Shown here: positions 2,745 through 20,525 of the stretch, piece by piece
How positions within the stretch are numbered: the first letter of the stretch is position 1
How the letters are laid out: every line of letters starts with the position of its first letter
Origin: a virus
Reading direction: 5' to 3' (one strand)
Virus record (IMG/VR): IMGVR_UViG_3300038457_000239
Coordinates: 1 to 20,525 of that record
DNA: 20,525 bases
Made by a program: the position numbers and the translations under genes
Notes under the pieces: generated by a model
The model's database searches: none
Seen by the model: only the letters and a program-made list of their open reading frames with translations
Told to the model about the DNA's origin: nothing

Positions 2745-2773
2745 TTGCGGAGGTTTACCCCAACGCCTACAAT
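2745..2773 (+). promoter_or_regulatory. Sigma70-type promoter candidate before the protease gene
   Basis: TTGCGG (2745-2750) and TACAAT (2768-2773) are separated by 17 bases. The second box matches the -10 consensus at 5 of 6 positions and the first keeps the TTG of the -35 box. The pair lies in the 84-base gap after the ABC-GNAT stop and about 40 bases before the protease ATG. It would let the protease and the small gene after it be expressed apart from the late operon, as expected for a moron. The call rests on consensus matching only. Confidence 0.45.
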
Positions 2774-2816
2774 TTTAGCCACCAGTTCATACGGTCACAA
2801 AGGCGAGGCGGAAACG

Positions 2817-3914
2817 ATGGGATTAGAACAAAGGATTCCTCTTTACGGAAAACTTAAGGCGAAACGTAAGCGACCACTCATCGTTTATGTCACCAGTACG
2901 CGACCACAGGCCGAGGCGCAGATCGCGAGCGATTCCATTTCCGAACTGGTTGCCCAGTTACAGGCTCTCCCACCCGACGCTACCGAGCTCGATTTCTACC
3001 TTGTGAGCAACGGCGGTGACGGCACCGTTGCCTGGCGAATGGTCTCCTTGATCCGCGAGCGCGTGAAAAAGTTTTCTGTCCTTGTGCCACAGGCAGCATT
3101 CAGCGCGGCAACGCTGATCGCATTAGGCGCCGACGAAATCGTAATGCACCCCTACGGTAACCTCGGCCCTACCGACCCGCAGATTACGAACCGGGCGAAG
3201 AACGTTCAATTCGGCTCCCAAGACCTTGCGGCATTCCTAACTTTTGCAAAGGAAGAAGTCGGCTTAACCGACCAAGCCCCACTACTCGAACTCTTTAAGG
3301 ATTTCAGCCAGGAAGTGGGATTCGTCGGAATCGGAGTCGCAGCCCGAAGTGCACAATTGACCGCCAGCATGGCGGAGAAGCTTTTGCGCTTGCACATGAC
3401 GTCCGACACTTCATCGCAAAAGGCGAAGGTGATCTCGGAGTCATTAAACACCAAGTTCTTTCACCACGGCTATCCCGTAAGTAAAACCGAAGCCAAGGGA
3501 ATCGGGTTGCCTATCGCCGCCGATGACACCGAAACACAGTCGCTGCTTTGGCAGATTTGGCTCGACATCGAAGCGGAATTAAAGCTTCGCCAACCGTTTT
3601 CCCCGGTTACCGTACTTCGCGATGATCCAGCCTGTGCCCCGCTATTCGCACCCGTTCCACTGGGCAGCCCGCCGATAGCTGTGCCGCCGGCAAGTTTCAC
3701 AAACCTCACAGCGATCATGGAAAGCTCCCGCCACGCGACGCGCCACATGGTCGAAGGTGAGATTACCGGCATGAAAATGCCCGACCAAAAACTTAACATC
3801 TCTCTGGTGCCTATCCGAACGGGCTGGAAGGATGTCCCGATACCACAACGAGTTGTGGACATTCCGGCGCCGGCGACCAAAGCCAAGCAGCCAAAAACGC
3901 CGAAAATTAAATAG
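2817..3914 (+). CDS. SDH-family (ClpP/SppA-like) serine protease
   Basis: This 365-residue protein matches the serine dehydrogenase proteinase group of the ClpP/crotonase fold (SppA-like, membrane-free). YLVSNGGDGTVAWRMVSLIR (61-80) forms the oxyanion-hole and helix region. VPQAAFSAATLIALGADEIV (90-109) carries the predicted nucleophile S96, followed by MHPYGNLGPTDPQI. No signal peptide or transmembrane segment is visible, so a cytoplasmic enzyme is expected. The tail (about 350-365) is rich in Lys and Pro. The ATG at 2817 is chosen over an upstream in-frame TTG at 2745 because GAGG (2805-2808) lies 8 bases before it and the upstream codons overlap the promoter candidate. The gene uses visibly more A/T at third positions than its neighbours, which suggests separate acquisition. 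In phages such proteases may act in head maturation, but this phage already has a gpI-like protease, so accessory cargo fits better. Confidence 0.85.
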   Translation: MGLEQRIPLYGKLKAKRKRPLIVYVTSTRPQAEAQIASDSISELVAQLQALPPDATELDFYLVSNGGDGTVAWRMVSLIRERVKKFSVLVPQAAFSAATLIALGADEIVMHPYGNLGPTDPQITNRAKNVQFGSQDLAAFLTFAKEEVGLTDQAPLLELFKDFSQEVGFVGIGVAARSAQLTASMAEKLLRLHMTSDTSSQKAKVISESLNTKFFHHGYPVSKTEAKGIGLPIAADDTETQSLLWQIWLDIEAELKLRQPFSPVTVLRDDPACAPLFAPVPLGSPPIAVPPASFTNLTAIMESSRHATRHMVEGEITGMKMPDQKLNISLVPIRTGWKDVPIPQRVVDIPAPATKAKQPKTPKIK

Positions 3915-4991: not shown

Positions 4992-6242
4992 ATGGTTCAA
5001 CTGCTAACCGAGAGATTATTGCAGAAATTCACCGGGCGAATTGCCTCCGCAAGCCAGGTCGATATAGCTGTTGCTTGGGTCACGCCCTCAGAAGCCCTAG
5101 AAAGGCTCCGTAAACTGGCCCTCAGGCCTGGTATCAGGATACGTGTCGCAGTCGGCCTCTCCGGGAATGGCACACACCCCGAAGCCCTTCGATCGCTCCA
5201 GAAGTTCGCGGAGGTTCGGATTTGCCACAGCGCCGACGGCATCTTCCACCCGAAGTTCTACCTGTTCCGCTCAGCCGAGGAAAAAATTTGTTGGGTCGGT
5301 AGTGCCAATTTCACTCTCCAAGGATTCATGCGCAACTCGGAACTCGTCAACGAGTTCTCCGACGATGGGACCGCTTGTCGTTGGTTTGAGAGGCTATGGG
5401 ATACGCTGGAACCCGACTCATCGGAAGAGATAAGCCAGTACATTAAAGCCTGGAAGCCGTCACCCGCTGGTTACAGCTCGGAAAGACCCCCTCCCGGAGC
5501 GGATATAAACCAACCCCTCGGATTTCTGATACCCGCACCACGAAGTTGGGGTGAATACATGGCTGCGCTTCGGAAATGCGACGCATACTGGAAGAAAACA
5601 GGCGTTAAGAAGATTAAGCACGAAGTCTCTGTGCTAGACCCAGCCTGGAGCTGGACGGCCACGATACTCACAGGCAAAGAATTGGTCCGCCGCGAGAAGT
5701 GGGCCGAATTCACGGACGAAGAAATCAACGTGCTCCTGCCAAAGCATTCACGCGACGGCGCATGGGAATTACTTGGCTCGATGCAACCAACTAAGATAGC
5801 CGTGCCCGCCTTCGTCAAAAATCACCATAAGGAGAGAGAAGCCATACGCAATGCAATTGCCCCACTGTTTGGCGCACCTGATGAGGACGCGTTCGTGCGT
5901 GCGGCAGTGCAAGCGTTTACAAATATCCACGACGGGCTGAAGGGATTCGGTCCAGCGATCGCGACCCGCTTTATTACCCTCGCCCGACCAGACCGCGGTG
6001 TATCGGTAAATGCGGGGTCAGCACCCGGCCTCGCCGAACTAAGGGGGCTGCCCTCAAAACCCGGCGCGCTCGGTAACGCAGCGGATTACGGCGAACTACT
6101 TCGATGGGTCTATGGGCAGCCTTGGTACAAGGCCCCGAGACCGAAGGAACCCCTGGAACAAACTGTCTGGGGCATGCGCGCCGCGTTAATAGACTGCTTC
6201 GTCTACAAGCCCAAACCCCCGCCAAACGGGAAAAACGAGTAA
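4992..6242 (+). CDS. Phospholipase D-type nuclease with C-terminal HhH-like region
   Basis: This 416-residue protein has one HKD-type motif of the phospholipase D superfamily: HPKFYLF (H86, K88) followed by CWVGSANFTLQGFMRNSELV (100-119). The early strands DIAVAWV (24-30) and IRIRVAVGLSG (48-58) fit a PLDc_2 domain of about 130 residues. A single HKD half is characteristic of dimeric PLD nucleases such as Nuc and BfiI. Residues about 180-400 are not a standard PLD half; around 311-340 there is a helix-hairpin-helix-like stretch (IHDGLKGFGPAIATRFITL, then ARPDRGVSVN), which suggests DNA contact. AAGGAG (4979-4984) lies 7 bases before the ATG. Lower GC and a position between the terminase genes mark it as cargo. 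A restriction-like or phage-exclusion role is inferred. Lipid hydrolysis is less likely. Confidence 0.78.
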   Translation: MVQLLTERLLQKFTGRIASASQVDIAVAWVTPSEALERLRKLALRPGIRIRVAVGLSGNGTHPEALRSLQKFAEVRICHSADGIFHPKFYLFRSAEEKICWVGSANFTLQGFMRNSELVNEFSDDGTACRWFERLWDTLEPDSSEEISQYIKAWKPSPAGYSSERPPPGADINQPLGFLIPAPRSWGEYMAALRKCDAYWKKTGVKKIKHEVSVLDPAWSWTATILTGKELVRREKWAEFTDEEINVLLPKHSRDGAWELLGSMQPTKIAVPAFVKNHHKEREAIRNAIAPLFGAPDEDAFVRAAVQAFTNIHDGLKGFGPAIATRFITLARPDRGVSVNAGSAPGLAELRGLPSKPGALGNAADYGELLRWVYGQPWYKAPRPKEPLEQTVWGMRAALIDCFVYKPKPPPNGKNE

Positions 6243-7075: not shown

Positions 7076-8491
7076 ATGCCCAGACTTACTCTGCTCGAAG
7101 ACCCGAGCCTTTTCCCTCCCCACCCGCCAAGCACCGATGGCACCCCCTCCGCCCAGAGCCTCTTTCTGGACGACTACCGCCATCGCTACTGCGGCTTCGC
7201 CGCCGGATGGGGCGGGGGAAAGACATGGGCCGGCGCCCGCAAGCTGGTGAACCTCCATCTGATCAACGCGTTCGATCAGAAAGGTCGCCCCACCTTCGTT
7301 AAAGGATTGGCAATCGCACCCACCTATCAGATTGCCGCGACGGTGTTAGTCCCCGAACTCCGCCACGCGTTGGCTGAAGCCGATCTCAGCCACCGATTCC
7401 TGAGCGACTTGCGCCGGTTCTGTTTCGTGCTGCACGACCTCGGCTCCTCTAGTCTACCCAGCGAGATTCTCGTGCGCTCCGCACAGCGCCCCGATCGGCT
7501 CGCCGGGTTCGAGGTCGGTCATCTCTGGGGAGATGAAGCCGCACGCTACCGACAGAACGAGGATGATCCGACCGATGATGCGATGCTCCAGGCTGAAGGG
7601 CGTCTCCGCGCCCCCAAAGCCCGCATCCTCCAGGCGAACTACACGTTCACCCATGAAGGCGACTGCACTGCCGTCTTTCGCCGGTTCGAGCAGGATTTTT
7701 CGGATCATCCCGACTACGGCCTTTACCGTGGCTCAAGCGACCAGAACCCGCTCATGCGCCACTACGCCCAGGAGAAGCGCGCCCGATTATCGCCGCATTT
7801 GGCCGCGCAATACCTGGACGGAAACGCCGTAAATCTCCGCGGCTCTCCCCTCTATCCCTGCTTCGATGAGTCGTTGAACGCCGACTCATCCATCGCCCTC
7901 GCCGATCACCTGCCCCTGCACCTCTCGGTCGACTTCAACATCGACCCCGGCATGCACGCGGTGGTAGGCCAGTACGACCAAGGCAGGGATTGCCTCACCG
8001 CCGTCCACGAAATCCACGCCCCGCGTATGGACGTGTGGCAAATGCTCCACGCCTTCCGCTCTCTGGTGGAGCACCACTACGGCGGCTGGCGCTGGCCCGA
8101 TCTCTGGGTCTTCGGCGACGCCAGCGGCGCCGGCAAGTGGGCCGGCAGCGGCGAATCCTGCTGGGACGTCGTCTGCCAATCGCTTCGCCAGGCCAACATC
8201 CCCTTTAAGTTGAAGGTCCCGCGCTCCAACCCGCCGGTGGCGGATCGCGTCAACGCCTTCAATTGTGCCCTCTGCTCTCTTGACGCCCGTCGAAGGTATC
8301 TGATTCATCCGCGCTGTTCGCTGCTTATTCGAGATTTGAAACAGATGCGCTGGTCGCGCGGCCAGATCGACAAGGACGACCGCCGCCTCAGCCACGCCGC
8401 CGACGCCGAAGGCTACCGCGTCCACTGGCTCATGCCGATCCGGCCTATGCGCATGCCGGCCGGCGCCGGAACTATCGGGTTCTCGGCGTAA
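7076..8491 (+). CDS. Terminase large subunit
   Basis: This 471-residue protein is the packaging motor and nuclease that drives DNA into the procapsid. The ATPase half has a Walker A-type loop, GWGGGKTWAGA (44-54), and a Walker B, GHLWGDEA (148-155, D153/E154). The region ARILQANYTFTHEGD (182-196) fits the coupling motif. The RNase H-like nuclease half shows the three expected acidic positions: SVDFNIDPG (D286), WVFGDASG (D348) and SHAADAEGY (D443). The length is normal for the family. No strong ribosome site precedes the ATG. The portal gene follows after 32 bases, the standard order. The small subunit-like gene lies about 2.2 kb upstream, across the PLD insert. Confidence 0.93.
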   Translation: MPRLTLLEDPSLFPPHPPSTDGTPSAQSLFLDDYRHRYCGFAAGWGGGKTWAGARKLVNLHLINAFDQKGRPTFVKGLAIAPTYQIAATVLVPELRHALAEADLSHRFLSDLRRFCFVLHDLGSSSLPSEILVRSAQRPDRLAGFEVGHLWGDEAARYRQNEDDPTDDAMLQAEGRLRAPKARILQANYTFTHEGDCTAVFRRFEQDFSDHPDYGLYRGSSDQNPLMRHYAQEKRARLSPHLAAQYLDGNAVNLRGSPLYPCFDESLNADSSIALADHLPLHLSVDFNIDPGMHAVVGQYDQGRDCLTAVHEIHAPRMDVWQMLHAFRSLVEHHYGGWRWPDLWVFGDASGAGKWAGSGESCWDVVCQSLRQANIPFKLKVPRSNPPVADRVNAFNCALCSLDARRRYLIHPRCSLLIRDLKQMRWSRGQIDKDDRRLSHAADAEGYRVHWLMPIRPMRMPAGAGTIGFSA

Positions 8492-8523: not shown

Positions 8524-9879
8524 ATGCCGCCCACAATGACCGCATTGCTCAGCCGCGCTCGGCGCACTGGCGCCGCCTTACGCAAATCGCTGCGTTTGAA
8601 ATCCAAGCCGCCCATGGGAATCGAGAGCGGCCAGCAAACCCGCAACGCCTCCCTACCCGGCGTTGCCACGGTCTCCCTCGGCTCCTTCGCCGCTCCCGCA
8701 TCGGGAACCTACGAGACCTACCGCCGGATGAACGCTCATCCGACCATCGCCCTGGCCCGTTCGATTGTCCTCTCGCCGGTCTATCGCAACGCCTGGGATT
8801 TCGCCCTCCGCCCCGGCTCACCGCAGCATTGGCTGGACTTCACACGCCAGACAATTGACCCCTTGCGTCCTCGATTGGTGCGCAATGCTTTGCGTGCCCT
8901 CGATTACGGCTGGTTCGGCGGCGAAATCGTCTGGGAGGAACGCGACGGCCAACTCTGCATCAGCCGCGTCAAACCGCTGCTGCCGGATGTGACCGCCATT
9001 CTCGCCGGCGACGACGGCGACTTCGCGGGCCTGGAGAATCGCCCCGGCAATTCCCCGCCCGTCACCTTACGCGCGGCCGAAGGCAAGGCGTTTCTCTTCA
9101 CCTACGACGGCGAGGCCGACGATCTTTACGGCCGCAGCCGTCACGAAAACATCCGCCATCAAGCCTGGGGTCCGGCTCTGCAAGTGGCAGAGAAGCTCGG
9201 CCAATATCTGAAGAAAGTCGCCGGCCTGGTCATCCAGCTTCATTACCCCGAAGGCACCAGCCGCGACGCCTCCGGCGCCGACCGCAGCAATGATTTCTTA
9301 GCCCAGCAGATTCTCGACGCCGTTTCCCAGGGCCGCAGCGTGCGGCTGCCGAATTTGTTCGCTTCCGTCGTCGCGGATGGGTCTGATCCGCGCTCCCTCG
9401 AAGCCGCCGCCGCCCTGGCCGGCAAGAGCCAATGGGTTCTCTCTGCCTTCGAGGCCGGCGCCGCCGACCACGCCGCCGGACTGCTGAATACCTTGAATTA
9501 TCTGGACAAACTCATGTTCCGCGGCTGGCTCCGCCCCGAACGCACCGGCCTGGAATCGACGCACGGCACCCGCGCCGACGCCGCCGTTCATACCGATACC
9601 GGCCTGCTCGACAGCGAGCTGATCGATTTGGATTTGGCCTTCGCCGTCAATCAGCAACTGGTGAACCCGCTGCTGGTTGCCAATTTCGGCCCGGCCGCGC
9701 GCGATGCCGTGGCCATCGCGCCCAATCCTCTATCCGACGATTCGACGCAAACCCGCCGGGCGATCGTGCAAGGGTTGCTCGCCAACCCAACGCTCGGTCC
9801 GCAGTTGGCCGCGAAGATCGACATGAATGCGCTGCTCGCCGACCTGGCCGTGCCGCTTAATTTGACGGAGCAATCATGA
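8524..9879 (+). CDS. Portal protein, Mu gp29-like (DUF935)
   Basis: This 451-residue protein would form the dodecameric ring through which DNA enters and leaves the head. It lies between the large terminase and a gpI-like protease, the portal position. The sequence fits the DUF935 / Mu gp29 group. An early helix pattern (YRRMNAHPTIALARSIVLS, about 61-79) precedes a stem-like segment (RNALRALDYGWFGGEIVWEE). A long helix resembling the family's clip and wing region follows (LLNTLNYLDKLMFRGWLRPE, about 320-339). Near the C-terminus lies DLDLAFAVNQQLVNPLLVAN. The stop overlaps the protease start (ATGA at 9876-9879), showing tight coupling. No frameshift or truncation is seen. The DUF935 group is a fit by pattern; the portal role is well supported by order. 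Confidence 0.87.
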   Translation: MPPTMTALLSRARRTGAALRKSLRLKSKPPMGIESGQQTRNASLPGVATVSLGSFAAPASGTYETYRRMNAHPTIALARSIVLSPVYRNAWDFALRPGSPQHWLDFTRQTIDPLRPRLVRNALRALDYGWFGGEIVWEERDGQLCISRVKPLLPDVTAILAGDDGDFAGLENRPGNSPPVTLRAAEGKAFLFTYDGEADDLYGRSRHENIRHQAWGPALQVAEKLGQYLKKVAGLVIQLHYPEGTSRDASGADRSNDFLAQQILDAVSQGRSVRLPNLFASVVADGSDPRSLEAAAALAGKSQWVLSAFEAGAADHAAGLLNTLNYLDKLMFRGWLRPERTGLESTHGTRADAAVHTDTGLLDSELIDLDLAFAVNQQLVNPLLVANFGPAARDAVAIAPNPLSDDSTQTRRAIVQGLLANPTLGPQLAAKIDMNALLADLAVPLNLTEQS

Positions 9880-11048
9880 CCCCCGCGACAACCACAACTC
9901 ATTCCCAACCCAAAGTTCGCCTCTGGAAGGACCTCATCCGCGTCGGCCGCTACCGGCATCCCACGAGGCGGTTCACCGTCCGGGTTGATCGCCCGCGGCT
10001 CGACCACTGGGCACACACGTTCAATCGCATGTCCACCAACGGCGTGCGCGTGCACATTCCCGCCGACCATTCCGACGCCGCTGCCGACAACCGCGGATAT
10101 GTCCTTGCCCTGCGCCGCGTGGGCGATCGATTGATGGCCTTGTGCCAGCTCATCGGCGCCGACGCCATCCGCGATGCGGCCCGCAATCAGGTCTCCATCG
10201 GCGTCGCCCCGACGTTCATCGACGGCCACGGAAATGTCTACCACGACGCGATCGTGCACGTCGCTCTCACGCCGGTTCCGGTGGTGCCGGGCCAGGGCGA
10301 TTTTCTGGCGGCTGAGGCGCTGCCCGCCGCGACGCGAACCAGTTCGTCCGCTGCTCACCACGTTCCACGCGTATCCCCCGCTCTCGCCGGCGCCGCGCCG
10401 GCGGGCGTGCTCACTCTCGCCGCGGCACATTCGTCTAACGGGAGGGTTTCCCCTCCGCAAAGGAGAGCCAACATGGCTCAGAAACTGCTGCCGTGCAGCG
10501 AGGAGAATCTCTCGACGCTGCACGATCTCATCCCGGGACTGTGCGATTCCCCCGATGAGCAAAAGCTGGAGAAGATTCTCCAGTTCGTTCAATCCCTCAT
10601 CGCGCAGGGTGTCGCCCAAAGCGTCGCATCGCCGCCCGAAGCAGCGGAACCTTCCGCGGGCCAGGCCGATTTAAGCCTGGCTGATTCGACCGATCCGCAG
10701 GTCCGCCAGGCGCTGCTGGACGCCGTCAGAACCAAGCGTGATCTGTGCATCACGCGCGGCGCCCTGACGCCCGCGGTAGCCGACGCGCTGCTGGCCCGCC
10801 TGATTCCCTCGGGCGATTCCGCGGTCATCAACCTTTCGCGCCAGGGCGGCTTGCCCGAGACGCTGGCCCTGAGCGTCTTCACCGCCCTGGCCGAGAACCG
10901 GCCCATCGTCCCCGGCCAGCGCACCGGCGCTCAGCCCCCCGGCCTGACGCCGCTGGCGCGAGCCGTCCCCGGCGAAGCTCAACCCGCCGGTCCTCCCCTG
11001 TATGAAAAAATGGCCGCCATGGCCAACGGCAAATGCGTCACTCTTTAA
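9876..11048 (+). CDS. Mu gpI-like capsid maturation protease with scaffold tail
   Basis: This 390-residue protein combines an N-terminal maturation protease with a C-terminal scaffold, as in Mu gpI and lambda C/Nu3. The protease part (about 15-145) shows the herpesvirus assemblin-like phage pattern: VHIPADHSD with predicted catalytic H65, then GYVLALRRVGDRLMALCQL. RNQVSIGVAP carries predicted nucleophile S107, and HVALTPVPVVPG (128-139) corresponds to the ALTNxP motif. An Ala/Ser-rich linker (about 145-195) leads to a helical, acidic C-terminal half ending YEKMAAMANGKCVTL. The start overlaps the portal stop. An internal in-frame ATG at 10473 with a strong ribosome site probably yields the scaffold alone. 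The decoration and capsid genes follow, completing the head module. Confidence 0.87.
   Translation: MTPATTTTHSQPKVRLWKDLIRVGRYRHPTRRFTVRVDRPRLDHWAHTFNRMSTNGVRVHIPADHSDAAADNRGYVLALRRVGDRLMALCQLIGADAIRDAARNQVSIGVAPTFIDGHGNVYHDAIVHVALTPVPVVPGQGDFLAAEALPAATRTSSSAAHHVPRVSPALAGAAPAGVLTLAAAHSSNGRVSPPQRRANMAQKLLPCSEENLSTLHDLIPGLCDSPDEQKLEKILQFVQSLIAQGVAQSVASPPEAAEPSAGQADLSLADSTDPQVRQALLDAVRTKRDLCITRGALTPAVADALLARLIPSGDSAVINLSRQGGLPETLALSVFTALAENRPIVPGQRTGAQPPGLTPLARAVPGEAQPAGPPLYEKMAAMANGKCVTL
10460..10465 (+). promoter_or_regulatory. Internal ribosome site for the scaffold protein
   Basis: AAGGAG lies 7 bases before an in-frame ATG at 10473, inside the protease gene. It is as strong as any site in the window and stronger than the one for the full-length gene, which relies on portal overlap. 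A small hairpin (GGAGGG 10441-10446, TTTC, CCCTCC 10451-10456) lies just upstream. Confidence 0.7.
10473..11048 (+). CDS. Scaffold protein from an internal start, Mu gpZ / Nu3-like
   Basis: This nested frame shares the last 191 residues of the protease gene. It is predicted to give the free scaffold that organises capsid subunits before cleavage. The sequence starts MAQKLLPCSEENLSTLHDLI and is largely helical, with a segment that may form a coiled bundle (DEQKLEKILQFVQSLIAQGV, about 28-47). Its C-terminal end could bind the capsid protein. Mu and lambda make scaffold in the same nested way, so the presence of AAGGAG exactly here is strong support. The downstream genes are decoration and capsid proteins. 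Confidence 0.72.
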   Translation: MAQKLLPCSEENLSTLHDLIPGLCDSPDEQKLEKILQFVQSLIAQGVAQSVASPPEAAEPSAGQADLSLADSTDPQVRQALLDAVRTKRDLCITRGALTPAVADALLARLIPSGDSAVINLSRQGGLPETLALSVFTALAENRPIVPGQRTGAQPPGLTPLARAVPGEAQPAGPPLYEKMAAMANGKCVTL

Positions 11049-11087
11049 CTCTTCTTTCGACTTCTTCAATTCCAATCGAGGTCAACC

Positions 11088-11795
11088 ATGTTTAACGTTC
11101 CCAACGGCAAGCCCGGCGTGCTGCTCAATCTCACCGCCACGCCCCGCGAAGTGTTCTATTCCGGGCGCGAGCGCGCCCAGTTCGTCGCCGTCCCCGTCAC
11201 CGTGGATGGCAACCTGACGTGCTGCCCGTCCAATGCGCCCTATACGTTTCAGATTCAAGCCGGCACGCTCATGGGCCGCGTTACCGCGACCAAGAAGTAC
11301 GCCAACAGCGTGCTGGGCCTGACCAGCAGCGCGACCGCGTCAGGCGCGACGACGATCCAGACGGACGTCAACACCGCCGCCGAGATTGTCCGCCGTATCG
11401 GCGCGACCGGCACGTTCAAGCTGACCGGCCCGCCCACCGCCGCCGGCACTGTCGCCACACAAGTCGTCACCTACACCGCCGTGAACACGACCACCGGCGC
11501 CATCACCTGTTCCGCCACCAGCGCCGCCGCCGTCACGCTCTCGCTCATTCAGCCGACCGACGGAAGCGATACGATCCTCACCATGGTCACCGATCTGTAC
11601 GGCATTAAGGTGACCGACCAGACCAACGTCAACCGCGTGGACGTCTTCGACCCGCGCCTCCTCCTCGGCGGCGGCACCATCAACAGCCAGATGATCGTGA
11701 ACTATCCGGCCGACACGTCACTGCAAGCGTACGTCAAGGCGGCTATCAAGACCTTCGCGTCCAACGTGACTTTCTCTGACGACATCACCGGCTAA
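11088..11795 (+). CDS. Probable capsid decoration protein
   Basis: This 235-residue protein lies between the scaffold and the major capsid gene, the place of lambda gpD-type decoration proteins. It is rich in Thr, Ala, Val and Gly, with repeated beta-strand-like stretches (FVAVPVTVDGN, TQVVTYTAVNTTTGAITCSA). It has no enzyme motif, signal peptide or membrane helix. It is longer than lambda gpD (about 110 residues); residues about 75-180 look like an added Thr-rich beta domain. GAGG (11078-11081) precedes the ATG by 6 bases. The role is inferred from order and composition; a minor head protein is the alternative. A long hairpin element follows its stop. Confidence 0.62.
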   Translation: MFNVPNGKPGVLLNLTATPREVFYSGRERAQFVAVPVTVDGNLTCCPSNAPYTFQIQAGTLMGRVTATKKYANSVLGLTSSATASGATTIQTDVNTAAEIVRRIGATGTFKLTGPPTAAGTVATQVVTYTAVNTTTGAITCSATSAAAVTLSLIQPTDGSDTILTMVTDLYGIKVTDQTNVNRVDVFDPRLLLGGGTINSQMIVNYPADTSLQAYVKAAIKTFASNVTFSDDITG

Positions 11796-16008: not shown

Positions 16009-17763
16009 ATGCTCAAACTCCCCCGCGCCACCGATGATCGCATCGCCCTCTCCGGCCAGGTCTGGAACCGCGCCGCCTCCGAGCTGGAGCGCCTCGCCAA
16101 CGTCCAGGTCTCGCCCCCGCTGGAATTGACCGACGGCCCCGCCGGCCGGCGGCTCAGCGTGCGCATTCGTCCGGATCGGCTGTATTGGGGTGTCATCCAA
16201 TGCACGGGCCCTGCCGGTACCGAGTCGGATTACTCCGACAACCGCTACTGGGTCGCCCTCGCCTTTGTCTCCAATGACCAGACCGACGCCGCCACCGCGC
16301 CGGTTACGGTCACGCCCTATGCGAGCGGCGATCCGCGCCGCAAGGTCGTCACCGCCACCAACTTTTTCGAGAGTAACGACCTCACCCATTCCGTGCGCCC
16401 GCAAACCATCGTCCGCCTCTGGGCGGAGTTTGACCGCGGCTCACCCGCGCAGCTTCGCTGGACGATGATCGTCGCCGATGAGGGCACGGAAAAATCCGCG
16501 CCGTGCACCGCCGGCTCCGGCTCGTCATCCTCTTCCTCCAGCTCCAACAGCGCCTCCAGCGCCAGCGGCTCAAGCCTGTCGTCGGGTTCCGCTTCGATCT
16601 GCCCGCCCGGATTTAACGGCACGCTTTACATGGGCGGCGCCATCAGCCGCGCCGGGGACGACATCATCCAATTGGTGGTCGGCCTCCAGTTCTGCAACGG
16701 CGCGCAAGTCCAGGTCGAAGCCCCCGGTTACGTCTCGGCATCCCTCTGCCCGCCGCCCAATTGCGATGTCAGCTCCGGCTCGGGCGCATTGAGCGCCGGC
16801 TCCAGCGGCTCAAGCGAAAGCTCCAGCGGCAGCGGATCATCCACGGGGTCCAGCAATTCCAGCGGCTCGGGCAGCGGCGATTCCGATGACGGCTCGGGCG
16901 GCTCAACCGGTTCTTCCTCCAGCAGCGCCTCCTGTCTCGACGCCGACAGCACACTCTGCCGCGGAACCTGCGACGACGCCGATCTCCCCCTGTGCGTCAC
17001 CGTCATGACCGGCTTGCTGGTCGCCTGCCAATCGTCGTGCGCGCCCATCCCGCCGACGATGTCACTCTCCGTCGTCGGCCGCTGCGAGGACGGCGGCGCG
17101 CCCCTGTTCTATGGCGAGGATACCACCACCTCCCTTGCCGCCCTGATTGTGTGGGACCCCGACAACGGCTGCTATGTCCTCTCCATCGGCGGATCCGCCG
17201 GCGCTGAAGCGCCCTGCCAGATCGTCACCTGGAAGGGATACTGTTCCACCGTCACCGGAACCTACACGCGCCTCTGCGGCGCTGATGGCGGCTGCGACGC
17301 CAACGCCGGAGTCCCCTATCTCAGCGTCAACGTCTGCGGCACATCCGGCTCGAGTTCGAGTTCAACCTCCAACTCGTCGGGCTCCTCAAGTTCCGGCTCC
17401 TCCAGCAGCCCGTGCGATTGCGGCGTCGGCGATTGCCCCGCCACGATCACCGTCCACACCTCGGGCATCAAGGATTGCACCGGCGTTTTCACCATGACCG
17501 ACTACACCCTCACCTTGAGCGGAACCTGCGACGACGGCACGGCCCTCTACCTCGGCGGCGACAGCAACTTCTCCGTGGGCCTCTCCTTCGAGGGCGCCGG
17601 CCCCACCTGCTGGCTGCTCACCATTTCCGGCGCCGAGGGCAGTTCCGCCGCCATGACCCTCGACGCCAGCCTCGAATGCGGCAATGGTCCCGCCGGCACG
17701 TACAACGTCTACGAGGCCGAATGCTCCGGCCTGCCCTCCACGATCCTGGTCACCGTCCCGTGA
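16009..17763 (+). CDS. Ser-Gly-linked, Cys-rich modular surface protein
   Basis: This 584-residue protein has an N-terminal domain (1-165) with one Cys (VIQCTGP) and strand-rich segments (RYWVALAFVSNDQTDAATAP). Three Ser-Gly linkers lie at about 168-196, 255-308 and 447-467. They separate three small domains that hold 26 of the 27 Cys residues. The last two domains look related: each has a C-[ED]-DG segment, then a strand that ends in C-Y/W-x-L-[ST]-I-[SG]-G, then a TGTY or AGTY motif. No signal peptide or membrane segment is visible, so export as part of a virion (fibre or appendage) is the likely route. GGAGA (15994-15998) precedes the ATG by 10 bases. The stop overlaps the start of the oxidase-glycosyltransferase gene (GTGA), suggesting that this protein is its substrate. 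Confidence 0.75.
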   Translation: MLKLPRATDDRIALSGQVWNRAASELERLANVQVSPPLELTDGPAGRRLSVRIRPDRLYWGVIQCTGPAGTESDYSDNRYWVALAFVSNDQTDAATAPVTVTPYASGDPRRKVVTATNFFESNDLTHSVRPQTIVRLWAEFDRGSPAQLRWTMIVADEGTEKSAPCTAGSGSSSSSSSSNSASSASGSSLSSGSASICPPGFNGTLYMGGAISRAGDDIIQLVVGLQFCNGAQVQVEAPGYVSASLCPPPNCDVSSGSGALSAGSSGSSESSSGSGSSTGSSNSSGSGSGDSDDGSGGSTGSSSSSASCLDADSTLCRGTCDDADLPLCVTVMTGLLVACQSSCAPIPPTMSLSVVGRCEDGGAPLFYGEDTTTSLAALIVWDPDNGCYVLSIGGSAGAEAPCQIVTWKGYCSTVTGTYTRLCGADGGCDANAGVPYLSVNVCGTSGSSSSSTSNSSGSSSSGSSSSPCDCGVGDCPATITVHTSGIKDCTGVFTMTDYTLTLSGTCDDGTALYLGGDSNFSVGLSFEGAGPTCWLLTISGAEGSSAAMTLDASLECGNGPAGTYNVYEAECSGLPSTILVTVP

Positions 17764-19238
17764 GTATTTCCCTCCCCATTACCTGCCGGCATTGGAGCCC
17801 AGCCGGCCCTCACACCGGCCGGTGCGATCTCCGTCCCGTCACGCGCGGCGGCCCGCGCCCGCTCCGCGCCTGGTGCTCGCGCCTTTGTCCCGAGCACTCA
17901 CCGGCCAGAATCGAGCGCGCAAAGCCACCCGCGGCGCAAAGGCCGGCCTCAGTTTCCATCACCGACCCGCGCTCCCGCCGCGGTCCCGAGCAATGGGGCG
18001 AACTCCATCGCTGGGCGCTCTCCTGCGAGGTCGCCAGCGCGCCAAATTGGCTTGGCCAATTCGCCCTGCGCATTCCCTGCGGCGATTGCCGCCGCCATTG
18101 GCTGGAACTGGTGCGCGAAATCCCCCCGTTGTTTTCCACGTGCGACCAAGCCTTCGCCTGGAGCGTCACCCTGCACAATCGCATCAACGCCCAGCTCTCC
18201 AAGCCTAATGTCTCGCTCGCCGAAGCGCGCCAGCGCTGGACCGCGCAAGTCGCCAATTACTTCGACGCCGTCTGGTGCATTAACCTCGACCGCGATCAAG
18301 ACCGCTGGCAAACCTTCCAGCAAACCCTCGCCGCGTGCGGCTGGCCCTTCGGCCCCGTCACGCGCATCTCCGCCATTCACGGCGACACCGTCGGCATCCC
18401 CGATCATTTCCACCAGGGCGGCGGCGCCTGGGGCTGCCTCCAATCTCACCGGCACGTCCTTGAACAAAGCCTGATGGCCGGCCACGAGCGCATTCTGATT
18501 ATGGAAGACGACGTCGATCTTCGCCCCGACTTCGGCGAGCGAGCCCGCGCCTTCCTCTCCAACCTCGGCGAAGAACCGTGGGACTGCCTCATGTTCGGCG
18601 GCCAGCACATGGCGCCCCCCAAACCTTTCAAGCCCGGCGTCGTGCGCGCCGCCAACATTCAGCGCACGCATTGCTTCGCCCTCAGCCGCACCTTCATGCG
18701 CGAGTTGTATCGCCACTGGTCCTCCCCGCTCGATCAGCATTGCGATTGGGCGCTGGGCCCCTTCGCCGCGCGCTGGAAAACCTACGCCCCAGAGCGCTTC
18801 GTCGCCGGCCAGCGCGGCGGCCATTCCTGGATCACCGGCGCCGACAAACCGCCGGAATGGTGGAACCCCCCGCCCCCCGACGCCCCCGTCGTCTTTCTCC
18901 GCTGCCCCCGCGAAGTCCTGGAATCCTGCCGCGATCTCTACCACGCCGGCAATCGCCGCAACGCCGAGGGCATCTGCGTCGGCCTGGCCGATGTATTCAA
19001 TCCAGGAAAAAACGCCACCAGAGATCGCAAAATCGCCGCGCTGAAGGATTGGATATCCATGATCCAATGGGAAGTCGCCAGCCGCGGCGATGGATCAGTC
19101 TGCACGATTTGGCATCCGCAGGCGGAGAGCGAGATTGTTAAAGCGGCGACGGGAAATGTGCTGATTGAGATTGACGCGACAACGCAACAACAAGCCCGTG
19201 AGCGGCATATCGGCGCGCAGGGCAACCCAAGGGACTGA
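17760..19238 (+). CDS. Erv/ALR-like thiol oxidase fused to GT25 glycosyltransferase
   Basis: This 492-residue protein starts at a GTG overlapping the previous stop. The N-terminus has a Cys/His cluster (C9, H18, C22, C39, C43). Residues about 76-160 match the Erv1/ALR pattern: WGELHRWALS (79-88), the redox motif IPCGDCRRHW (C107, C110) and FAWSVTLHNRINAQLSKP (132-149), whose HN-x-x-N-x-L-x-KP resembles the FAD-binding helix. Residues about 165-345 are a family 25 glycosyltransferase: WCINLDRDQDRW (172-183), AIHGD, GCLQSHRHVL (226-234 region) and ILIMEDDVDL (245-254) with the metal-binding EDD at 249-251. A C-terminal region of unknown fold follows. No membrane segment is seen. Disulfide formation plus sugar transfer on the upstream Cys/Ser-rich protein is the inferred job. 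Confidence 0.8.
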   Translation: MSISLPITCRHWSPAGPHTGRCDLRPVTRGGPRPLRAWCSRLCPEHSPARIERAKPPAAQRPASVSITDPRSRRGPEQWGELHRWALSCEVASAPNWLGQFALRIPCGDCRRHWLELVREIPPLFSTCDQAFAWSVTLHNRINAQLSKPNVSLAEARQRWTAQVANYFDAVWCINLDRDQDRWQTFQQTLAACGWPFGPVTRISAIHGDTVGIPDHFHQGGGAWGCLQSHRHVLEQSLMAGHERILIMEDDVDLRPDFGERARAFLSNLGEEPWDCLMFGGQHMAPPKPFKPGVVRAANIQRTHCFALSRTFMRELYRHWSSPLDQHCDWALGPFAARWKTYAPERFVAGQRGGHSWITGADKPPEWWNPPPPDAPVVFLRCPREVLESCRDLYHAGNRRNAEGICVGLADVFNPGKNATRDRKIAALKDWISMIQWEVASRGDGSVCTIWHPQAESEIVKAATGNVLIEIDATTQQQARERHIGAQGNPRD

Positions 19239-19274: not shown

Positions 19275-20525
19275 CTATGGCTTGAAGTCCGGCTCGTTTC
19301 CCACGGGCGGCTGGAACACCGGCGCCGGCCGCGGCGGCGGGGGCTTGGGCGCCTGCGCCTGTGCCGGTCTCGCGCCTGGCGCTGCGGGCTGCGCCGGCTG
19401 GGCCGCCGCCTGGGCAGGCGTGCCCGGCTGCACCACCGTCAGTTCGTGCTGAAACTTCTTGTAGTCGTCGCTCGTCGTATCCAGTTGCGTGTCGCGCCGC
19501 TCGGACTTGCCGCTTGCGTCGGCAACCACCAGCGCCGTTCGCGATTCCGATCCCGGCCGCGTGTTCTTCACGTCCAGCAGCGTCCACTGCGTGGTGAAGT
19601 TGCCGCCGGTTCCCTCATCAGCGCCGATCTCGTCGCCGGGAGCGGGGCTGTAATCCTTGTTGAGCCACTGCCCGTCGTGCCAGGTATACACCGTGACCGC
19701 CACCTGCTCGGAGTCGCGCGCCCGCCCGCCGGGCTGCTTGGTCGAGCACCAGAATCGCGTGCGGGGCGAGACAGTGATCGTATCGCTCCAGGCACTGTCC
19801 GGGCTGTCCAAACCAAACTGATCGGAAATCTCCGGCGTCGCCGCGTGATTCGGCTGATCGTACACGGGGTTATACAGCGTGTAACGCAGCTTGTAATGGT
19901 ACGACTTGCCCGCCTGGGCGGTCATGTCAATCAGATAAATTTCAAGATCGCCGCCGGGGGCCAGCGTCGCCGGGCTGGATGGAGTCGCCGGCAACAGTTG
20001 CAGTTTGGGCAGCGCGGGAACCGCCGCCGCCGACCCGGGCGTCGTCGCAGACGGTGTCGCGCCGCCCGCGGCAGGGGCCGCAGGAGTCGCCGAAGGTGTG
20101 CCAAACAAATCGCCACCTCCCGCCGGCGGGGCCGTCGCTACGCCGGCCGCTTGCAGAGGGGCAACAGGATTAAACGCGCCGCCTGCCGCCGCGCCAGATG
20201 ACGAGCCGGGGGCCGCCGCCGCGCCCGCCGCCGGCGCTTCCGCCGCCGCCGTTGCGGCCGCGGCCTGTGCGGCTCGATAGGCGACCCACGAGTCCAGCGG
20301 CTGCCACTGCAAATCGCCTCGATCCCTCAGTGCCACGTCCGGAAATACCGGATTGGCGATTTCCGGCTGGGCCGTCCCCATCCAAATCTTGTATTGCGCC
20401 AACTGCTGGCGAAGTTGCCCCGATGCCGGCGGCGGATACGCCACGGGCGGGGTCGGGAAATTCGTCGGCGGCCCCACAACCACATCCGGTCCCCACGTGC
20501 CGTCGGGGTTCTGCTCCTGGCGGAC
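19275..20525 (-). CDS. Ala/Pro-rich protein, probably host, N-terminus cut off
   Basis: The frame runs leftward from the window edge to a stop at 19277-19275 and shows 416 residues. It stays open beyond the GTG at 20483, so the true start lies outside. Visible order: a Pro-rich N-terminal part, a polar segment (LRQQLAQYKIWMGTAQPEIA), and an Ala-rich low-complexity stretch of about 115 residues. A compact beta-rich domain follows (LEIYLIDMTAQAGKSYHYKL, WSDTITVSPRTRFWCST, VAVTVYTWHDGQWLNKDYSP), then a Pro/Ala-rich tail. Strand-rich domains of this kind with long Ala/Pro spacers occur in planctomycete envelope or assembly proteins, but I cannot name a function. It converges on the phage genes with only 36 bases between stops, so it probably marks the right edge of the phage DNA. 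Confidence 0.72.
   Translation of the reverse strand, partial: VRQEQNPDGTWGPDVVVGPPTNFPTPPVAYPPPASGQLRQQLAQYKIWMGTAQPEIANPVFPDVALRDRGDLQWQPLDSWVAYRAAQAAAATAAAEAPAAGAAAAPGSSSGAAAGGAFNPVAPLQAAGVATAPPAGGGDLFGTPSATPAAPAAGGATPSATTPGSAAAVPALPKLQLLPATPSSPATLAPGGDLEIYLIDMTAQAGKSYHYKLRYTLYNPVYDQPNHAATPEISDQFGLDSPDSAWSDTITVSPRTRFWCSTKQPGGRARDSEQVAVTVYTWHDGQWLNKDYSPAPGDEIGADEGTGGNFTTQWTLLDVKNTRPGSESRTALVVADASGKSERRDTQLDTTSDDYKKFQHELTVVQPGTPAQAAAQPAQPAAPGARPAQAQAPKPPPPRPAPVFQPPVGNEPDFKP

Follow-up and report, generated by a model that had tools for sequence, protein, structure and literature searches.

Gene layout and the Cys/Ser-rich protein

The DNA analysed here, referred to as the window, spans 20,525 bases and comes from the virus collection IMG/VR (IMGVR_UViG_3300038457_000239). 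It contains two overlapping genes on the forward strand, the first of which encodes a protein rich in cysteine and serine and the second a predicted fusion of an Erv/ALR sulfhydryl oxidase to a GT25 glycosyltransferase. Erv genes paired with a Cys-rich neighbour recur in unrelated phages, from which it is probable that phages bring their own means of cross-linking an external part, and sometimes perhaps of glycosylating it. The features of the pair are listed below; they were read from the sequence except where other sources are given in brackets.

16009-17763, forward: Cys/Ser-rich protein of 584 amino acids with 27 Cys (open reading frame), the proposed substrate and probably a tail or virion appendage
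16009-16503, forward: N-terminal Cys-poor domain, residues 1-165, one Cys
16507-16575, forward: Ser/Gly linker 1, residues 167-189
16576-16791, forward: Cys domain 1, residues 190-261
16792-16932, forward: Ser/Gly linker 2, residues 262-308
16933-17337, forward: Cys domain 2, residues 309-443, 13 Cys
17338-17409, forward: Ser/Gly linker 3, residues 444-467
17410-17760, forward: Cys domain 3, residues 468-584, 8 Cys
17760-17763, forward: GTGA overlap, in which the fusion gene begins within the stop codon of the Cys/Ser-rich gene
17760-19238, forward: Erv-GT25 fusion protein of 492 amino acids in one open frame (open reading frame, Pfam, PHROG, model)
17784-17888, forward: N-terminal four-Cys segment (C9, C22, C39, C43)
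17967-18254, forward: Erv/ALR domain, residues 70-165, with CGDC at 18078-18089 (Pfam, model, structural match, invariant residues)
18261-18839, forward: GT25 glycosyltransferase domain, about residues 168-360, with EDD at 18504-18512 (Pfam, PHROG, phmmer)
18840-19235, forward: C-terminal segment with no family match (profile search, model)

The original prediction, made from the DNA letters, described the upstream protein as having 26 of its 27 Cys in three groups joined by Ser/Gly linkers. The residue positions bear this out, the only Cys of the N-terminal domain being C65 and the remainder falling at residues 166-252, 309-443 and 469-572, with the Ser/Gly-rich runs at the positions listed above. 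The protein has no family match in Pfam, PHROG or NCBIfam. Its Cys domains were modelled from the single sequence with a mean predicted local distance difference test (pLDDT) score of 38, and Cys domain 2 comes out as mostly strands at low confidence; the model is too poor for us to claim a fold. The N-terminal Cys motif of Cys domain 3 weakly resembles that of a protein encoded next to the Erv gene of contig L139 (36% over 47 columns, E about 0.015). L-numbers, here and below, are labels of other IMG/VR viral contigs that were compared with the window; these contigs are metagenomic and come without hosts.

The predicted GTGA overlap of the two genes is present in the sequence, as are CGDC at residues 107-110 and EDD at residues 249-251 of the fusion. 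The helix motif that follows CGDC is also present, as HNRINAQLSKP, although the spacing given earlier (HN-x-x-N-x-L-x-KP) was one residue short of the actual HN-x2-N-x2-L-x-KP. The start codon of the fusion gene is GTG, with an alternative ATG 43 nucleotides upstream. The segment containing C9, C22, C39 and C43 is possibly a shuttle disulfide, the second Cys pair that cellular Erv/ALR enzymes typically have, or a metal site; a similarly placed segment occurs in the Erv proteins of L139 and L147 and is absent from several phage relatives.

The Erv/ALR domain

Residues 95-160 of the fusion match the Evr1_Alr family (PF04777; E 5.6e-10, 39.9 bits against a curated cut-off of 27.6). An alignment of 17 phage Erv proteins, which was the input for an AlphaFold2 model of the fusion, contains nine invariant positions (W79, H83, C107, C110, P122, H139, N140, N143 and K148), with catalytic residues and residues of the flavin adenine dinucleotide (FAD) site among them. 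In the model, residues 70-165 form five helices (70-88, 91-103, 108-120, 128-145 and 153-168) with pLDDT 90-98. The closest structural neighbour of this domain is pB119L of African swine fever virus (ASFV; 3gwl, Z 14.6, root mean square deviation 1.7 over 95 residues), and the next in rank are Erv2, Erv1 and ALR, with Z values of 12.7-13.7. QSOX (Z about 7) and baculovirus oxidases are found lower in the same search, and the first unrelated chain has a Z of 4.0. Sequence comparison with solved structures agrees with this assignment. We assign this N-terminal part of the protein encoded at 17760-19238 to the Erv/ALR sulfhydryl oxidases, as a predicted FAD-binding thiol oxidase. The Erv fold and FAD-site residues expected from the original prediction are thus found by model, by structural match and in the 17-sequence alignment.

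The GT25 domain

The Glyco_transf_25 family (PF01755) is matched at residues 171-268 (E 2e-6, 28.3 bits against a curated cut-off of 24; 28.5 bits in a record-level search) and a PHROG glucosyltransferase family is matched with E 7e-11. A weak phmmer match to procollagen galactosyltransferase 1 (COLGALT1, E 0.007) aligns the two motifs of the family, which in the fusion are INLDRDQDRW (NLxRxxDR-like) and IMEDDVDL (EDD). With tblastn the protein matches GT25 genes of phages and plasmids, for example that of Prochlorococcus phage P-SSM2; among the matches listed, all begin at query residue 140 or later and none covers the Erv core. Residues 169-383 were modelled without glycosyltransferase relatives, mostly at pLDDT below 60, and no convincing glycosyltransferase structure matched that low-confidence part, a result that at such confidence carries no weight. 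The part that follows the Erv domain, about residues 168-360, is predicted by these sequence matches to be a GT25 glycosyltransferase.

Erv domains in other viral contigs

No match to the Erv domain was found by tblastn in 50,697 deposited phage records, and no Erv was present in 42 records of terminase or ATPase cousins. Searches of genome contigs and viral contigs with the whole fusion protein found no relatives, and a two-sequence Erv alignment found no match in the genome contigs. IMG/VR was scanned with the Erv domain as a query and with two DNA patterns of the Erv motif, neighbouring genes being unused in the searching. The productive DNA patterns were of the fixed-gap form CxxC-x28-HNxxN; a CGDCR-type pattern gave chance matches and no Erv genes. 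In these pattern scans an Erv gene turned up in another 19 viral contigs. The Pfam model confirmed 14 of 14 records in one set and five of 12 in the other, four of these five being over the cut-off and one weak, with its gene cut at the contig end; the matches in L153-L155, L157, L159, L161 and L163 were rejected as not Erv.

All of the Erv domains match one another in BLAST, at 27-100% identity, and on this evidence we regard the phage Erv domains as homologous. In a tree the window clusters with L139, which has no GT25 domain, with a support of 88/89 that is below the tool's mark for strong support. The Erv protein of L151 (10391-10729, reverse strand) is short and lies amid very long repetitive fibre-like genes, and this contig is perhaps a different kind of virus.

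Cys-rich partners of the Erv genes

It was expected that homologous pairs would keep a Cys-rich neighbour, and they do so in nine of ten evaluable partner groups, in which the reading frame ending at the Erv start is Cys-rich. There are about ten such groups, with neighbouring reading frames defined by simple rules. In most cases the Erv gene overlaps the 3' end of its partner by 4 to 29 nucleotides. The partners are as follows.

L139: 11 Cys in 197 amino acids
L140, L144, L146 and L152: 21 Cys in about 349 amino acids
L141, L145 and L148: 38 Cys in about 315 amino acids
L142: 13 Cys in 132 amino acids
L143: 6 Cys in 137 amino acids
L147: 10 Cys in 203 amino acids, or 5 in 155 from the first ATG
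L149: 14 Cys in 556 amino acids, or 15 in 613
L150: 63 Cys in 835 amino acids
L172: 12-13 Cys in 234-249 amino acids
L173 and L174: 41 Cys in 305 amino acids

L139, L142, L143 and L173 had been candidate exceptions and were rejected as such, since the gene caller had missed their partners and stop-to-stop reading revealed them as Cys-rich. The contig L171 is cut by its end.

Among 1,329 called genes of 86 other phage loci, 2.5% combine a Cys content of at least 4% with a minimum of six Cys. When the rule used to pick Erv partners is applied to 930 other phage genes, 10% pass at a threshold of at least 2.4% Cys and 6% at a threshold of at least 4% Cys. Against this base rate of 6-10%, nine passing groups out of ten have a p of about 1e-8, or about 4e-7 with the doubtful L147 start counted against the rule, and a chance neighbourhood is therefore rejected.

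The partners belong to about nine mutually unrelated families. A conserved Erv domain beside unrelated partners is as expected for a fixed enzyme with a fast-changing substrate, and by sequence comparison the Cys-rich partner appears to turn over while the Erv enzyme stays conserved. The gene order of the tail module in L140, L144 and L152 matches that in L172, L173 and L141, with unrelated Cys-rich proteins at the same place, which suggests gene replacement.

Fusions and tail-module context

In two contigs the Erv domain is fused to a further domain. L170 (IMG/VR 3300010373_001365) encodes one protein of 420 amino acids with a Cys-rich N-terminus, Ser-rich linkers and Erv at residues 331-416, in effect the two genes of the window joined, minus GT25. 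L149 (3300044630_006976) encodes one protein of 462 amino acids with a GT29 domain (E 2.9e-13) followed by Erv (E 1.1e-10), which is matched in sequence by sialyltransferases of mammals and by solved Erv proteins, and whose gene start overlaps the gene of the 14-Cys protein. The domain orders in L149 and the window are opposite and the glycosyltransferase families differ, so the two glycosyltransferase fusions most likely arose separately.

Beside the 63-Cys protein of L150, a DUF6734 protein (10275-11150; PF20508, E 6e-11) overlaps the end of the Erv gene and is possibly another modifying enzyme. By eye it looked like a glycosyltransferase, it has no sequence match in the PDB, and we do not claim it as one.

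In L139, L141, L143, L144, L170 and L172 the pair is preceded by a tape-measure gene at a distance of two to four genes. In L144 a collagen-like tail fibre gene lies downstream of the pair, and L172 and L173 are alike by sequence. In relatives with a recognisable tail module, gene order thus places the pair in the predicted tail-tip region.

Proposed function and alternatives

The explanation we favour, as somewhat more likely than not, is that the pair is a cassette by which the phage matures a Cys-rich external protein of its own. In its boldest form, which has a probability of roughly 0.42, one bifunctional enzyme both oxidises and glycosylates the virion protein encoded by the overlapping upstream gene; it would be a variant of a widespread and so far undescribed system of tailed phages, whose conserved Erv oxidase acts on Cys-rich proteins that face the receptor and change fast. 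The parts of the favoured explanation differ in strength. The link between oxidase and substrate is well supported by the genomic comparison, and it is quite likely that the Cys-rich neighbour is the substrate of Erv. That this neighbour is a virion tail-tip protein is likely too, if slightly less so. Action of GT25 on the same neighbour is a tentative proposal that falls a little short of even odds.

Under the favoured explanation the Cys/Ser-rich protein would be made first, and translation of the enzyme would be coupled to its synthesis. Electrons would move through the Erv domain from substrate Cys to the CGDC disulfide, then to FAD and on to oxygen or another acceptor. The small Cys domains would in this way gain disulfides during late expression in the reducing bacterial cytoplasm, where tailed phages are assembled. 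The fused GT25 would most likely add sugar to the same protein, for example to its Ser/Thr-rich linkers, or to another virion glycan, glycosyltransferases having joined the Erv system in some lineages. The original prediction of a dedicated machine that folds and glycosylates an appendage is thus supported for its oxidase half, by the fold, the residues and the nine partner groups; for its glycosylation half the GT29-Erv protein of L149 is suggestive, while most Erv phages have neither GT25 nor GT29.

Several observations weigh against this explanation. Some phage Erv proteins (for example those of L140 and L141) have few Cys beyond CxxC and no obvious shuttle disulfide, although many viral Erv enzymes also lack one (PMC3509050). 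In L151 the Erv gene has no Cys-rich neighbour. GT25 is found in none of the 19 other Erv records and GT29 only in L149, so a glycosyltransferase is not an obligatory part of the system, and L170 has Ser-rich linkers and no GT25. Metal binding, in place of disulfides, is a possible role of tight clusters like CACC or CCCDC. No tape-measure or tail-fibre gene is recognisable within the window, so the tail-tip placement of its own pair is by analogy with the relatives only.

The alternative that survives best keeps the disulfide half and makes GT25 an enzyme of the lysogenic-conversion type that acts on a host surface glycan, such as lipopolysaccharide (LPS), its fusion to Erv being incidental or serving co-expression. 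Pfam describes the family as 'LPS biosynthesis protein', PHROGs place the matching family under moron or auxiliary genes, and the fusion gene is the last before a gene on the opposite strand, a usual place for a moron; the rarity of GT25 among Erv phages and the Ser linkers of L170 also fit. However, a second phage, L149, joins Erv to the unrelated GT29, again beside a Cys-rich protein, and the existence of two fusion orders (Erv-GT25 and GT29-Erv) argues for a shared acceptor. We regard this alternative as unlikely overall, though a serious competitor.

It is less probable still that the Cys-rich neighbours hold zinc or Fe-S sites and that the role of Erv is redox control of those sites or of the host, no structural disulfides being formed. 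The clusters in the partners (CPSCCCDC in L140, CACC...CGGC in L170) and the four-Cys segment of the Erv proteins of the window, L139 and L147 are in keeping with metal binding, but the partners in L141 and L150 have the widely spaced Cys usual in disulfide-rich repeats, and Erv is by fold and catalytic residues a thiol oxidase, whose activity would destroy metal-thiolate sites. That Erv is a general anti-host or oxygen-stress enzyme travelling with a variable late gene, the Cys-rich neighbour being a coincidence, would fit L151 and the oxidation of small thiols by Erv in vitro (PMC3509050), but is strongly disfavoured, with very little probability left to it, by the frequency of Cys-rich partners over the base rate and by the fusion of a Cys-rich part to Erv in L170.

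Other genes in the window

Profile searches identified a terminase at 7076-8491 and a Mu-like portal at 8524-9879, and further late genes are also present. Directly upstream of the terminase, at 4992-6242, is a PLD-like (HKD) protein with weak likeness to NgoFVII-type and defence-associated PLD proteins. The stretch 859-2732 encodes a ParB-like protein and, after it, an ABC/GNAT ATPase (phrog_11143, E 1e-89, a phrog of unknown function); these two are also direct neighbours in dozens of other phage contigs. The protein encoded at 2745-3914 is an SDH/ClpP-like serine protease (PF01972, E 2e-15), possibly a head maturation protease. Immediately after the cassette, at 19275-20525 on the reverse strand, lies the gene of an Ala/Pro-rich protein that has no family match and may mark the edge of a prophage; in L170 an opposite-strand gene likewise adjoins the 3' side of the Cys-Ser-Erv fusion.

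Relation to known systems

Viral Erv oxidases are known from the nucleocytoplasmic large DNA viruses (NCLDV) and related eukaryotic viruses (PMC10598087). Those of NCLDV, which include ASFV pB119L, mimivirus R596 and vaccinia E10R with A2.5L/G4L, share with the window protein the fold, CxxC and FAD-site residues and are likewise encoded by the virus. In poxviruses a cytoplasmic pathway supplies the disulfides of virion proteins (PMC1318495, PMC10598087). Unlike these, the genes described here are in tailed-phage contigs, are coupled to the gene of one Cys-rich protein and include a glycosyltransferase fusion; the Cys-rich protein is identified as a partner by gene neighbourhood, and its place in the virion is a prediction. 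No relay gene like A2.5L/G4L is named among the annotated neighbours of the cassette, no dedicated search for one having been made.

Yeast Erv1 and Erv2, human ALR and QSOX share the Erv domain fold with the window protein and differ from it in cellular compartment and substrates; in QSOX the fusion partners of the Erv domain are thioredoxin domains and no glycosyltransferase is joined to it. GT25 enzymes (COLGALT1, bacterial LPS GT25 and the P-SSM2 GT25) have in common with the window protein its NLxRxxDR-like and EDD motifs; among the tblastn matches listed, none extends over the Erv core. Glycans are borne by the capsid and tail tube proteins of mycobacteriophages (Freeman et al. 2023, cited in PMC12619734), which is a precedent for a virion acceptor of GT25; in those phages the acceptors are the C-termini of capsid and tail-tube subunits, and no coupled thiol oxidase is known. 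Yeast Erv1p forms disulfides in foreign proteins in the cytoplasm of Escherichia coli (PMC3022669, PMC2946281), in engineered systems that are artificial, whereas that of the window would be natural and dedicated to its substrate.

Because the cytoplasm in which phages assemble their structural proteins is reducing, these proteins are, to our knowledge, generally assumed to avoid structural disulfides. We found neither a phage Erv case nor an Erv-glycosyltransferase fusion described in the open-access literature searched. What is new here is a probable Erv disulfide system that is carried by phages, is linked to a single Cys-rich gene and in two cases has a glycosyltransferase fused to it. If the proposal is true, prokaryotic viruses would have a counterpart of the NCLDV disulfide pathway, and the folding of Cys-rich tail or virion proteins would be explained. 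The fusion of Erv to two unrelated glycosyltransferases suggests a joint route of modification, possibly a natural toolkit for making disulfide-bonded glycoproteins in bacteria. An Erv gene beside a Cys-rich reading frame would also serve as a sequence rule for picking out, from phage genes that lack annotation, those of unusual proteins for receptor binding or shielding.

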